From NCBI RefSeq assembly GCF_000300515.1, contig NZ_AMSI01000005.1:62001-126000 (forward strand): a stretch of DNA of 64,000 bases, written 5' to 3'. Position numbers and translations under genes: made by a program. Under the pieces are notes generated by a model. It searched no databases. It had not been told where the DNA came from and was given only the letters and a program-made list of their open reading frames with translations. Shown here one piece after another: positions 31,223 to 36,121 of the stretch. How positions within the stretch are numbered: the first letter of the stretch is position 1; every line of letters starts with the position of its first letter. This stretch comes from Nitratireductor indicus C115. GTDB taxonomy: Bacteria; Pseudomonadota; Alphaproteobacteria; Rhizobiales; Rhizobiaceae.

Positions 31223-32032
31223 TTATCGGGCTACGTCAAGCAAAGCGGGCCATTCCTCAAGCAGGGCCTTTTTAGCCCGAATGCCGGGGGAAACAGCGTC
31301 TCGCCGCTCATCCTGCGTCAGGCGGGCAAAGGCAATTCTCCTGCCCTCGCCTTCTGCCCATCCGACGAACCAGCCCCAACCGCGTGCATAATCAAAGCTG
31401 CGGTCTGCACGCCGGGGATAGGCGCCGCCCGTCTTGCCATGGATTGTCCAGCGTCCAATCCCCGTGCGCTCGACGATAGAGCGGGTCCGTTCGATGGCAT
31501 TCTGCGTCACCGGGAGACGCCCGAGCACAAGCGCTCGCATGAAGGCAACCTGCTCTCCGGGCGAGACCTGAAGCGAAGATGCAATCCAGGCGCGGTCCAG
31601 ACCGTTGTCGAACCCCTTGTCGCCGGAGAAATCGGCGTTGCCGTAGCCCATGGAGCGGGCGTAGGCGGACAGGCGACTTGCGCCAAGCTCATGGGTGATG
31701 CGCTGCGAGTACCACACCACCGAATAGCGTAGCCAGCTTTCCGGTGTCGTGTCCTTCTTCCAGTTCGCACCGCCCCAATCGGGATCGCCCGCACGGAAGG
31801 GCAGTCTGGGGGTTTCTGCGTCCTTCAGGAAGCCGCTGTCATACCCCATGACGGCCAGCGGTATCTTGAAGGTCGAGGCAGGTGTGGTGCGGCTTCCGCA
31901 ATCGCCTTCTTCATGGAGAATATCTCCCGTCTCCACGTCGACCATGAGGGTGCAGACGGTACGCGCTTCGGCTTGCGCCGCGTGCAGGAGCGCCAGGGAA
32001 GATACGCCGAACGACAGAAGGAACTTCGTCAT
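31223..32032 (-). CDS. Class D (OXA-type) beta-lactamase homologue
   Basis: Secreted protein of 269 residues with a signal peptide (about 1-23). All class D active-site motifs are in order: STFK (PASTFKIPLAV), SVV (LRYSVVWYSQ), YGN (SMGYGNADFSG), a WIASSLQVSPGEQ segment, and KTG (IHGKTGGAYP). The enzyme would hydrolyse penicillin-type antibiotics through an acyl-serine. It lies in a minus-strand series after the NDUFA12 and DUF2155 genes, with no mobile element near it, so it looks like a resident chromosomal gene. Activity cannot be judged from sequence. Confidence 0.88.
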   Translation of the reverse strand: MTKFLLSFGVSSLALLHAAQAEARTVCTLMVDVETGDILHEEGDCGSRTTPASTFKIPLAVMGYDSGFLKDAETPRLPFRAGDPDWGGANWKKDTTPESWLRYSVVWYSQRITHELGASRLSAYARSMGYGNADFSGDKGFDNGLDRAWIASSLQVSPGEQVAFMRALVLGRLPVTQNAIERTRSIVERTGIGRWTIHGKTGGAYPRRADRSFDYARGWGWFVGWAEGEGRRIAFARLTQDERRDAVSPGIRAKKALLEEWPALLDVAR

Positions 32033-33108: not shown

Positions 33109-33597
33109 TCATTTCAGTTTCATCTTGAAACCCACATGGCTGCGGGCAAAGCCAAGTCGTTCGTAAAAGTGGTGGGCACGGTCGCGCTGGGCGTTGGACA
33201 TGAGCTGGACAAGACGCGCGCCGGAGGTCCGCGCCACCTCGACAGCGTAAGCGATCATCGTCGCGCCGATGCCCTTGCCACGCATGTCTTCGCGGGTCTG
33301 CACGGCCTCGATGGTCATGCTGGTGCCGCCACGTCCGGTCATGCTGGTGATGAAAGTGGTCTGAAACGTGCCAACCACCTGCGCATCCAGTTCCGCCACA
33401 TAAAGCGTGTCGCCGGCGCTCGCCGCGATGCGCCGGAATGCCGCAAGATAATCGTCATAGGCTGCCGGATCCGTCGTGTCGCCATGGCCCCCAAGTGCGT
33501 CCGAGGCAAAGAGCGCCACGATAGCCGGCACATCGCTTTCCCGCGCTTCACGAATGACAAGACCGTCAGCGCCTTCTTGCGCACGCCTCTCCATCAA
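33109..33597 (-). CDS. GNAT-family N-acetyltransferase (second of a pair)
   Basis: Protein of 162 residues with the acetyl-CoA-binding motif RGKGIGATMI near residue 112 and a C-terminal FYERLGFARSHVGFKMKL strand-helix typical of GNAT enzymes. The substrate is unknown. Its start overlaps the stop of the upstream GNAT gene by four bases (ATGA), so the two are translationally coupled. Confidence 0.88.
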   Translation of the reverse strand: MMERRAQEGADGLVIREARESDVPAIVALFASDALGGHGDTTDPAAYDDYLAAFRRIAASAGDTLYVAELDAQVVGTFQTTFITSMTGRGGTSMTIEAVQTREDMRGKGIGATMIAYAVEVARTSGARLVQLMSNAQRDRAHHFYERLGFARSHVGFKMKLK

Positions 33598-34100
33598 AGG
33601 GTCTTTCCGTAGATCAGCGCAGGAAGGCTGCCGGCAGTTTGGTCCGCCGCGTCGGCGCGGCCCAGACGAGAGAAGCCGTTGGCCACGTAAAAGGCGATCG
33701 CCGAAGCATTCGCCTCCTCGACCTCCAGCCGGATTTCCCGGGCCTCGGGGAAGCTGTCCTCGATTTCGGCAAGCAGGGCGCGGCCTATTCCAAGCCTTTG
33801 CCTGGCGGGCAGGACGTAAAGTTGCTGAAGGTGCAGCGCCCCGCCCCCTTCGCCGCTGACCGCATAGGCCATGCCTGCGATCTCGCTGCCATTGTCTGCA
33901 ATGACGAACTCGGAATTTGGCTGCCCGAGACGCGCTTCGAGCGCCTCCGGACTGTGCCAGCTATCCGTGATCTCGCCCACCCGCGCAGCGCCATAAATGG
34001 AATCGCAGGTGTCGTGCCAGGTCTCAACCAGCAGAGCCCGAACCGCCGGCAGGTCCCGGCGGCTCGCGGTGCGGATGAAATAATTCCCGGCGCTACTCAT
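33594..34100 (-). CDS. GNAT-family N-acetyltransferase (first of a pair)
   Basis: Protein of 168 residues with motif [15 protein letters not shown] near residue 98 and [17 protein letters not shown] near the end, both typical of GNAT enzymes. The substrate is unknown. Its start codon overlaps the end of gatB by eight bases, and it is followed by a second GNAT gene with a four-base overlap. Confidence 0.88.
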
Positions 34101-35595
34101 CGATGCCGAGCTTTTCCTTCACAAGCGCGTTGACGGCCTGGGGATTGGCCTTGCCACCCGTGGCCTTCATAACCTGACCGACGAACCAGCCGGCCAACGT
34201 CGGTTTTGCCTTGGCCTGCTCGACCTTTTCAGGGTTGGCCGCGATGACGTCGTCCACGGCCTTCTCGATAGCGCCGGTGTCCGTCACCTGCTTCAGACCG
34301 CGTTCCTCAACGAGGGCGCGCGGATCGCCGCCCTCGGCAAGAACGATTTCGAACAGATCCTTGGCGATCTTGCCCGAGATCGTGCCATCCTTGATCAGGT
34401 CGATGATGGCACCGAGCTGATCGGGCGTGACACGGGTGGTTTCAAGGTCTTCGCCCGCCTTGTTCAAGGCTCCCAGCAGATCGTTGATAACCCAGTTGGC
34501 CGCGGTCTTGCCGTCACGCCCTTCGGCCACCTTCTCGAAATAGTCGGCGGTGGCCTTCTCGGCGATCAGAACGGAGGCGTCATATTCCGACAGTCCGAAA
34601 TCGCCCATGAAACGGGCCTTCTTGTCGTCGGGCAATTCCGGCAGATGAACAGCGAGGGCGTCCACATAGGCCTGGTCGAACTCGAGCGGCACCAGGTCCG
34701 GATCCGGGAAATAGCGGTAGTCATGCGCTTCTTCCTTGGAGCGCATGGAGCGGGTCTCGCCCTTTACCGGATCGAACAGGCGCGTTTCCTGATCGATCTT
34801 CCCGCCATCCTCGAGGATGGCGATCTGGCGGCGGGCCTCCGATTCGATGGCCTGGCCGACGAAACGGATCGAATTCACGTTCTTGATCTCGCAGCGCGTG
34901 CCGAATTCGCCGCCTGGACGGCGCACCGAAACGTTCACGTCGGCGCGCATGGAACCTTCGTCCATGTTGCCGTCGCAGGTGCCGAGATAGCGCAGGATGG
35001 TGCGCAGCTTGGTGAGAAACGCCTTCGCCTCGTCGGAAGAACGGATGTCGGGCTTCGACACGATCTCCATCAGTGCCACACCCGAACGGTTCAGATCCAC
35101 ATAGGACATGGTCGGGTGCTGGTCGTGCATGGACTTGCCGGCATCCTGCTCCAGATGCAGGCGTTCAATGCCCACCTCGATCTCCTCGAAGGAGCCATCC
35201 TTGGCTGGGCCGACGAAGACCGCCACCTTGCCCTCGCCCACGATGGGCTGCTTGAACTGGGAAATCTGATAGCCCTGCGGCAGGTCCGGATAGAAATAAT
35301 TCTTCCGGTCGAAGACGGAGCGATGATTGATCTGCGCCTTCAGGCCAAGGCCGGTGCGGATCGCCTGCTTGACGCATTCCTCGTTGATGACGGGCAGCAT
35401 GCCGGGCATGGCTGCGTCAACCAGCGAGACATTGGCATTGGGCTCGGCGCCGAATGCGGTCGATGCACCAGAGAAAAGCTTGGACTGCGACGTCACCTGG
35501 GCATGGATCTCCATGCCGACGATGATTTCCCAGTCGCCGGTGGCGCCGGAGATGAAACGCTTGGGATCGGGCGTGCGCGTGTCGATAATGGTCAT
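34093..35595 (-). CDS. gatB: Aspartyl/glutamyl-tRNA amidotransferase subunit B
   Basis: Subunit B of the GatCAB complex, which converts Glu-tRNA-Gln or Asp-tRNA-Asn to the amide form. It has 500 residues. Family signatures are [49 protein letters not shown] and RTEIKN-like CEIKNVNS. The C-terminal YqeY-like domain ends [10 protein letters not shown]. The start is the ATG at 35595. gatC and gatA are not adjacent here. Confidence 0.96.
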
Positions 35596-35670: not shown

Positions 35671-35699
35671 CTTTATTCCGCCAGCTTGTTGCGCTATGA
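35671..35699 (+). promoter_or_regulatory. Candidate promoter of the yjhX-like leader transcript
   Basis: CTTTAT (35671-35676), 17 bases, CTATGA (35694-35699). The match to alphaproteobacterial sigma-70 sites is partial. It would start RNA near 35706, just ahead of the short upstream ORF. Confidence 0.3.
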
Positions 35700-35721
35700 A
35701 GCGCCGACATTCGGAGTTTTT

Positions 35722-35748
35722 ATGTCTACCAACAGTGAGTCCTGCTGA
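35722..35748 (+). CDS. Eight-codon upstream ORF (possible leader peptide MSTNSESC)
   Basis: ATG at 35722 to TGA at 35746-35748 encodes [14 protein letters not shown] ribosome site lies 5 bases before the ATG. A hairpin begins 2 bases after the stop codon, and alternative hairpins follow before the yjhX-like start at 35864. No homologue is known to me. It might be a leader peptide that controls the downstream gene, or chance. Confidence 0.4.
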
Positions 35749-35749
35749 A

Positions 35750-35777
35750 GCCCCGACCTGAGGATCAGGATCGGGGC
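35750..35777 (+). promoter_or_regulatory. Leader hairpin 1 upstream of the yjhX-like gene
   Basis: GCCCCGA (35750-35756) with TCGGGGC (35771-35777), and inside CCTGA (35757-35761) with TCAGG (35765-35769), one bulged base and a GGA loop. Strong stem directly after the upstream ORF. Confidence 0.5.
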
Positions 35778-35798
35778 GAGAAAACCGCAAGCATCCGT

Positions 35799-35841
35799 GC
35801 CGGCAAAACGGCGCGGCGTTTTGTGTTGGCTTTTTGCCAAC
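35799..35841 (+). promoter_or_regulatory. Mutually exclusive leader hairpins (terminator-like and alternative)
   Basis: Stem one: GCCGGCAAAACG (35799-35810) with CGTTTTG..TTGGC (35817-35830), followed by TTTTT (35831-35835), which looks like an intrinsic terminator. Stem two: GTTGGC (35825-35830) with GCCAAC (35836-35841) around the same TTTTT. Both use 35826-35830, so they exclude one another. A longer-range pairing GAAAACCG (35780-35787) with CGGTTTTC (35841-35848) is also possible. Confidence 0.45.
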
Positions 35842-35863
35842 GGTTTTCCCGGGATTTCAAACC

Positions 35864-36121
35864 ATGGACATTTCACGCGCGGAACAGCGCGTCCTGCACA
35901 TTCTCGCGCAGGGCGGCCGGATCGACATCGAAAAAGACGATACCGGCCTCATCATCGATTTGAGTTGCGTCACACGCGAGGGCTGGCACCTTGCCTGCCT
36001 CGACATGACGCTCTTTCGCAAACTGAAGCGCAAACGCGCTATCAGATCGGTGAATGGCGGCCCCTACCGGATCACCAGACGGGGGCTCGAACTCGTGCGC
36101 TCGCAACCCGACAACAGGTAG
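35864..36121 (+). CDS. YjhX/TopAI-family toxin homologue (UPF0386)
   Basis: Protein of 85 residues that matches YjhX of E. coli along its length (MDISRAEQRVLHILAQGGRI, VTREGWHL, FRKLKRKRAIRSVNGGPYRI, ending RSQPDNR). In E. coli this protein, renamed TopAI, is reported to inhibit topoisomerase I and is paired with the GNAT-like protein YjhQ. No yjhQ gene is adjacent, but two GNAT genes lie downstream of the divergent gatB. The ATG at 35864 has GGGA 9 bases upstream and lies after a structured leader. Confidence 0.87.
   Translation: MDISRAEQRVLHILAQGGRIDIEKDDTGLIIDLSCVTREGWHLACLDMTLFRKLKRKRAIRSVNGGPYRITRRGLELVRSQPDNR

Follow-up and report, generated by a model that had tools for sequence, protein, structure and literature searches.

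The window analysed here is a 64,000-nucleotide stretch of the Nitratireductor indicus C115 genome (contig NZ_AMSI01000005.1, positions 62,001 to 126,000 of the forward strand), and the subject is the leader of a yjhX (topAI) homologue within it. An earlier note on this DNA had read a yjhX-like gene preceded by an 8-codon open reading frame (ORF) with its own GGAG site, and both are confirmed at the positions in Table 1. In Escherichia coli, toiL is the leader of topAI-yjhQP and its mechanism has been shown experimentally (PMC12121999; this paper, PMC12218461 and PMC4666372 are cited from excerpts). The leader described here probably attenuates translation of an orphan topAI gene in the manner of toiL. 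Confidence in this reading is limited because the support for the window is computational and its own ORF duplex is not above chance.

Table 1. Predicted features of the yjhX leader region (positions of the window)
Feature	Position	Strand	Remarks
Promoter-like element CTTTAT, 17 nt, CTATGA	35671-35699	+	read by eye
Shine-Dalgarno (SD) GGAG of small ORF	35713-35716	+	window sequence; alignments A2 and A4
8-codon upstream ORF, peptide MSTNSESC	35722-35748 (ATG 35722-35724, stop TGA 35746-35748)	+	142 nt before yjhX
Helix 1, 5' strand	35722-35728	+	pairs with 35865-35871 at the yjhX start codon, probability 0.82-0.96
Helix 2, 5' strand GAGUCCUG	35737-35744	+	pairs with 35850-35857, probability 0.86-0.97
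P1 hairpin	35750-35777	+	-20.5 kcal/mol; opens one base after the small ORF's stop
Outer stem GAAAACC	35780-35786	+	pairs with GGUUUUC 35842-35848
P2 hairpin CCGTGCCG/CGGCGCGG, then CGTTTTGTGT	35795-35816 (35795-35802:35809-35816)	+	
P3 hairpin GTTGGC-TTTTT-GCCAAC	35825-35841 (35825-35830:35836-35841)	+	
yjhX SD region CGGGATTT	35850-35857	+	predicted to pair with the small ORF
yjhX/topAI homologue, 85 aa	35864-36121	+	PF09857, E 3e-38; 47% identity to E. coli TopAI

Conservation of the upstream ORF

An ORF of exactly eight codons, with an ATG and an SD site, lies 100-260 nt upstream of yjhX in 150 of 215 distinct loci, against 2.7 expected from a first-order Markov model. Every other length from 4 to 13 codons is found in 1-9 loci each (2.3-3.1 expected). 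The reverse-complement control yields an 8-codon ORF in 1 of 215 stretches, and none of the window's 99 ORFs of about 150 codons or more, many of which are not genes, carries one upstream. The 215 loci remain from 232 after removal of 16 duplicates and one locus without a match; they are mostly alphaproteobacterial, with E. coli and four phylum-level loci (L219, L220, L221, L223) from outside the class. At least one locus with the 8-codon ORF is present in 34 of 52 YjhX clusters, and the median distance from this ORF to yjhX, 142 nt, is that of the window. The short ORF is thus kept across Hyphomicrobiales, the conservation on which the earlier note had staked its proposal, and it occurs beyond that order. 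At the level of the order, 107 of 397 sampled genomes contained PF09857 itself; the figures were 20 of 385 for the class and 40 of 398 for the phylum, with overlap between the samples.

For the comparisons below, an upstream ORF (uORF) was assigned to 200 of the 215 loci (173 with eight codons) by a score that favours eight codons, E/Q motifs and a distance near 140; because of this preference, 150 of 215 is the unbiased count. Later leader sets comprise 198 loci for the P1 hairpin, 191 for masking and ORF shuffling, 199 for the YjhX tree and 165 for the pairing profile. Four loci (L034, L041, L049, L173), at least three of them from Pleomorphomonas, have the small ORF 258-260 nt from yjhX with roughly 115 extra bases between; by eye, these bases contain inverted repeats and resemble a palindromic insertion element.

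Predicted pairing between the small ORF and the yjhX ribosome-binding site

Complementarity between the small ORF and the yjhX ribosome-binding site (RBS) is a property of the family. The duplex of the ORF with yjhX positions -26 to +3 has a mean z of -1.46 against shuffled RBSs (median p 0.11; p <= 0.05 in 70 of 200 loci), while six other offsets, used as controls, give mean z values of -0.38 to +0.59. The cognate duplex, at -16.5 kcal/mol, is stronger than the mean non-cognate duplex, at -13.6 kcal/mol, and is the stronger in 152 of 200 loci. These tests, like the masking and ORF-shuffling tests below, treat loci without kinship correction; the cluster test averages within clusters, and there z is negative in 46 of 46 YjhX clusters, with a mean of -1.83. 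Nitratireductor loci have a mean z of -1.09. Over 165 whole-leader folds, the mean probability of pairing with yjhX -20 to +9 is highest along the ORF (0.25-0.73 across positions 1-25), lower in the eight bases that precede the ATG (0.21-0.47) and at most 0.01 starting two bases beyond the stop. In the window, ORF positions 1-7 and 16-23 are predicted to pair with the yjhX site with probabilities above 0.8.

Architecture of the leader

The leader at 35702-35883 has a predicted folding energy of -74.5 kcal/mol (z -3.78), better than 200 of 200 dinucleotide shuffles, and its minimum-energy fold is a closed, multi-branched structure composed of helix 1, helix 2, P1, the outer stem, P2 and P3. The strong hairpin that had been noticed after the ORF's stop is P1, although it opens one base past the stop and not two. 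Its placement recurs in relatives: 187 of 198 leaders have a hairpin of -9 kcal/mol or better that begins 3-7 nt beyond the first base of the stop. Counted by single offset, the peak is 158 leaders at offset 5, with 25 at offset 11; further hairpins are common, up to 111 at offset 47.

Pairing in relatives was counted over 18 aligned rows, with the structure taken from the window's own row. Helix 1 has 100% of cells paired over its 7 pairs, of which 5 are invariant and none changes on both sides, and helix 2 has 79% of cells paired. In the outer stem, 93.8% of cells are paired in four pairs and 48.9% in the remaining three, while P3 reaches 50% on the sequence alignment. P2 has 91.6% of cells paired and double-sided changes in 5 of 8 pairs. 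For P1, a count over 22 rows shows a double-sided change (CG/UA) in one of the six outer pairs, the others being invariant. RNAalifold alone recovers helix 1 together with P1 and P2, and helix 2 is missing from its prediction. For the structure as a whole, the covariation score and the number of double-change cells exceed 500 of 500 shuffles; the number of pairs with double changes (17 versus 14.1, reached by 38 of 500 shuffles) and of further pair types (40 versus 41.6) are hardly above them.

A model, R1, was built from the 22 rows of alignment A4 rather than the 30 of A3, because the Shinella hairpins, judged by eye, lie one column out in A3. Its single strong match in the N. indicus genome is the yjhX leader (E 6.5e-19; the next match has E 0.13), and across 61 genomes all 15 matches below 1e-6 precede yjhX, 13 as judged from the known yjhX coordinates and two from a check of the loci themselves. 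The model was run with stricter filters, under which the leader of one genome (G023) was missed and 13 of 14 yjhX genomes were recovered. One further stretch (L248) holds an R1 match of E 0.001 and no yjhX. A search against Rfam returned two tRNAs and nothing else.

This architecture bears on a rival explanation, transcription attenuation, in which P2 with its U-run would be an intrinsic terminator and a ribosome at the ORF's stop would melt P1, whose freed 3' arm would disrupt P2. P1 does sit where a terminating ribosome would cover it, and the window contains three terminator-like sites within 35795-35828, versus 0.9 in shuffles. The best candidate is P2 with CGTTTTGTGT, a hairpin and U-run at 35795-35826 that forms a possible intrinsic terminator, although just U4 follows P2. 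Among relatives, 66 of 200 leaders have U4 directly after a hairpin of -10 kcal/mol or better, against 12.1 from shuffles. A hairpin followed by A4, however, is about as frequent (59 loci), and the reverse order, U4 before a hairpin, is seen in 34; the U4 signal is thus unspecific and mostly reflects abundant hairpins. Pairing of the P1 3' arm with P2, judged by eye, is seen in some rows. Termination in E. coli topAI relies on Rho (PMC12121999), and the one terminator candidate in the Sinorhizobium meliloti DUF1127 leader did not terminate (PMC12218461).

The earlier note had suggested two mutually exclusive stems, one of them followed by TTTTT, and perhaps intrinsic termination. On paper, GTTGGC and GCCAAC of P3 are indeed overlapped by terminator-like stems at 35803-35824 and 35809-35828. 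The TTTTT at 35831-35835, however, is the loop of P3 and is replaced by other letters in the other 17 rows of A2, and termination in the form first suggested is not borne out. Transcription attenuation, while compatible with the translation attenuator preferred here, is unlikely.

Predicted effect of a ribosome on the ORF

The consequence of a ribosome resting on the ORF was modelled with a mask of about 31 nt in one of three places (ORF start, codon 5 or stop), and the unpaired probability of the yjhX RBS served as readout. Over 191 loci, the mean rises from 0.354 in the free leader to 0.575, 0.547 and 0.497, respectively, and is 0.355 with a control mask in the middle. The rise exceeds 0.05 in 165, 153 and 127 loci, and a fall of more than 0.05 occurs in 7, 9 and 14. 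The window follows this pattern (0.375 free; 0.526, 0.512 and 0.534 masked), as does the E. coli leader (0.21 free, 0.44-0.46 masked). Shuffling the ORF raises the mean accessibility from 0.354 to 0.462; 153 of 191 loci show an increase, as do all 10 of the Nitratireductor loci.

These predictions are consistent with a model in which the transcript would begin upstream of the small ORF, and the ORF would be the strand that pairs with the yjhX RBS in the predicted fold. A ribosome parked on the ORF would cover this strand and free the RBS, allowing synthesis of YjhX, the probable topoisomerase I inhibitor. The model presumes translation of the ORF and a natural signal that may be stalling under ribosome-targeting drugs or a similar stress, and it presumes that YjhX would inhibit TopA here as in E. 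coli.

Constraint on the peptide

Leader peptides were divided into two classes by sequence patterns of our own definition, which 16 of 200 fit in neither case. Class A, to which the window belongs, includes MSTSFESR, MSNSSETC and MSRLSESR; class B includes MLELVTTR, MLEIVIDR and MSELVGNR, and E. coli ToiL, MLENVIIR, falls in B by pattern. YjhX begins Met-Asn in 41 of 41 class B loci and Met-Asp in 123 or Met-Asn in 20 of 143 class A loci. On a YjhX tree of 199 rows, with few columns and many open forks, the A/B label requires 4 changes, or 15 if the third group is counted. Some class B loci have 5-codon ORFs at the same place (MSELV in L044, L054, L077 and L083; MPETA in L112 and L113), and those of L044, L054 and L112 form predicted duplexes of -16.8 to -18.3 kcal/mol with the yjhX RBS.

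Coding constraint was assessed over codons 2-8 by the ratio of nonsynonymous to synonymous change (pN/pS), from pairs that are not mutually independent. With relatives pooled, the in-frame ratio is 0.82 and the two out-of-frame ratios are 1.00 and 1.08; class A gives 0.80 versus 0.96 and 1.12, and class B 0.79 versus 2.38 and 1.68 (39 pairs). On these sequence comparisons, the peptide appears constrained weakly at best.

A specific arrest peptide, in which the Ser-rich peptide itself would sense one drug, amino acid or metabolite, could account for the preferred residues: of the 173 eight-codon ORFs, 117 encode Glu and 14 Gln at residue 6, and 121 encode Arg and 27 Cys at residue 8. The class A ratio and that of Nitratireductor (1.19 in frame) argue against this explanation, as does the double role of GAGTCC (Glu-Ser), which at the RNA level is also the part predicted to pair with the SD region of yjhX. 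An arrest peptide is therefore improbable, slightly more so than a terminator. Conversely, weak coding constraint, together with the strong fold and hairpins, would suit a leader that acts as structured RNA, with only an incidental ORF, and serves as a protein or small-RNA site or in RNA stability. That 150 of 215 loci have an ORF of exactly eight codons, complete with SD and stop, and that P1 is positioned relative to the stop codon make this the least likely of the three, and very improbable. Since the ORF retains its length, start, stop and pairing while its peptide is at best weakly constrained, it is better explained as sensing ribosome position than as encoding a dedicated arrest peptide.

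Several observations weigh against the translation attenuator. All folds are thermodynamic predictions, and the window's own duplex is not above shuffles (z +0.06 in the 200-locus test, +0.39 in the cluster test). When its ORF was shuffled, 2 of 20 shuffles left the site as closed, compared with 0 to 3 of 20 over the ten Nitratireductor loci. Of 191 loci, 26 (mask at start), 38 (codon 5) and 64 (stop) either gained no more than 0.05 in accessibility or became less accessible. The score used to pick uORFs assigned none in 15 of 215 loci and is biased, as described, towards the very length, motifs and distance at issue. Covariation in the start-to-start helix (helix 1) was dropped as evidence, the right register scoring 2.04 versus 2.03 of 3 pairs; several wrong registers were nominally significant with tiny differences, which indicates that the permutation test is inflated by kinship, and it was not used. 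Finally, coding constraint is absent from the Nitratireductor ORF (pN/pS of 1.19 in frame, compared with 1.22 and 0.88 out of frame; 45 pairs), so that its translation is presumptive.

The yjhX gene and its surroundings

Upstream of the ORF, the motif CTTTATTC-N9-TTTGC-N2-TATGAAA is present in 8 of 10 Nitratireductor rows, the window (L001) and L008 deviating. The sigma-70 scan did not list the promoter-like element of Table 1 and listed a different site, at 35561-35589. From the element, we infer a transcript start near 35706.

The small ORF and yjhX are flanked by two ORFs, each on the minus strand, which we take from their sequences to be gatB and a CBS-domain-like ORF. Beside gatB, at 33109-34100 and 31223-32032 on the minus strand, lie what are presumably, again judged from sequence, two GNAT acetyltransferase-like ORFs and one class D beta-lactamase-like ORF (STFK). 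No YjhQ was found in the window (best tblastn E 0.51), and the N. indicus genome contains just two weak GNAT matches to YjhQ, both on other contigs. A YjhQ-like gene directly downstream of yjhX occurs in 0 of 142 class A loci versus 15 of 42 class B loci, where class A counts 142 rows after reassignment of L225 to B and 141 in the set of the class B count. This contrast is treated as descriptive because the independent events are few, with just one independent pair on the starred branches of the tree.

Two genomes (G346 and G371; loci L084, L085, L094, L095) carry two yjhX copies each. One copy has an 8-codon ORF (MRARQESR), and no YjhQ-like gene was found with it; the other is followed by a YjhQ-like gene and has no recognised uORF. 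In a locus of the same genus as the window (L014, genome G004, around 1501-1566), yjhX has an apparent internal loss and the small ORF of the adjoining leader starts with GTG; leader and gene may be decaying together.

A broader proposal, tentative and more doubtful than the attenuator itself, is that the ORF may be a peptide-independent sensor of ribosome parking, antisense to the RBS of the next gene. Its length would be held close to a single ribosome footprint, and stalling at any of its codons would then open the gene, while the peptide drifts. Such a sensor would control YjhX in alpha- and gammaproteobacteria, and class A YjhX would work without a linked antitoxin, not as one partner of a toxin-antitoxin pair but as a regulated brake that acts on topoisomerase I when translation is under stress.

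Comparison with known systems

Literature searches among openly licensed PMC papers (topAI/yjhX/toiL, family names, Caulobacter/Rhizobium uORFs) found no description of such a leader in alphaproteobacteria, in agreement with the earlier note. The terms "alphaproteobacteria" and "Rhizobi" are absent from the main text of PMC12121999. A Caulobacter TopAI homologue has already been named (PMC4666372); the protein, but not the leader, is thus already known from alphaproteobacteria, as far as the excerpts go.

Two uORF-dependent systems offer partial parallels. The S. meliloti DUF1127 attenuator, from the same bacterial order, reports ribosome availability and is induced by tetracycline (PMC12218461). 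It differs in its uORF of at least 24 codons, its C-rich attenuation element, its presumed Rho termination between uORF and gene and its target, and no anti-RBS ORF is described in the excerpts of that paper. The ermC and ermB leader peptides, as presented in PMC12121999, resemble the proposal in that a stalled ribosome on a short ORF frees the RBS of the next gene; they differ in having a resistance gene as target and in stalling that is specific to drug and peptide.

The closest counterpart is toiL. Both leaders contain an 8-codon ORF, 142 nt upstream of the gene here and 139 nt in E. coli, and share a target family (PMC12121999). In both, the ORF is predicted to pair with the topAI RBS and a hairpin lies at the ORF's end in the predicted fold. 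This pairing is found across the family (46 of 46 clusters) and in the window's fold, though the window's duplex alone is no better than shuffles. The E. coli system is induced by ribosome-targeting antibiotics and involves Rho termination inside topAI (PMC12121999). The two differ in their peptides, MSTNSESC here and MLENVIIR in E. coli, whose first seven residues (MLENVII) are not conserved in the window; the class B peptides MLELVTTR and MLEIVIDR look intermediate. E. coli topAI is followed by yjhQ, in contrast to the window, and the identity of 47% falls under the 50% cut of the structural alignment in PMC12121999. The toiL-like device with a different peptide that had been suggested from the sequence is thus supported by gene family, ORF length, a nearly identical distance, presence across Hyphomicrobiales and predicted ORF:RBS pairing. 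Because a conserved peptide and a linked yjhQ are both lacking, the leader is classed as one that works like toiL but as a variant of it. This would extend a regulatory device published from E. coli to alphaproteobacteria. It suggests that selection keeps ORF length and RBS complementarity rather than the peptide, raises the question of why a genome would retain an inhibitor of TopA that has no antitoxin linked to it, and provides many natural variants for asking how one short ORF reports many translation stresses.
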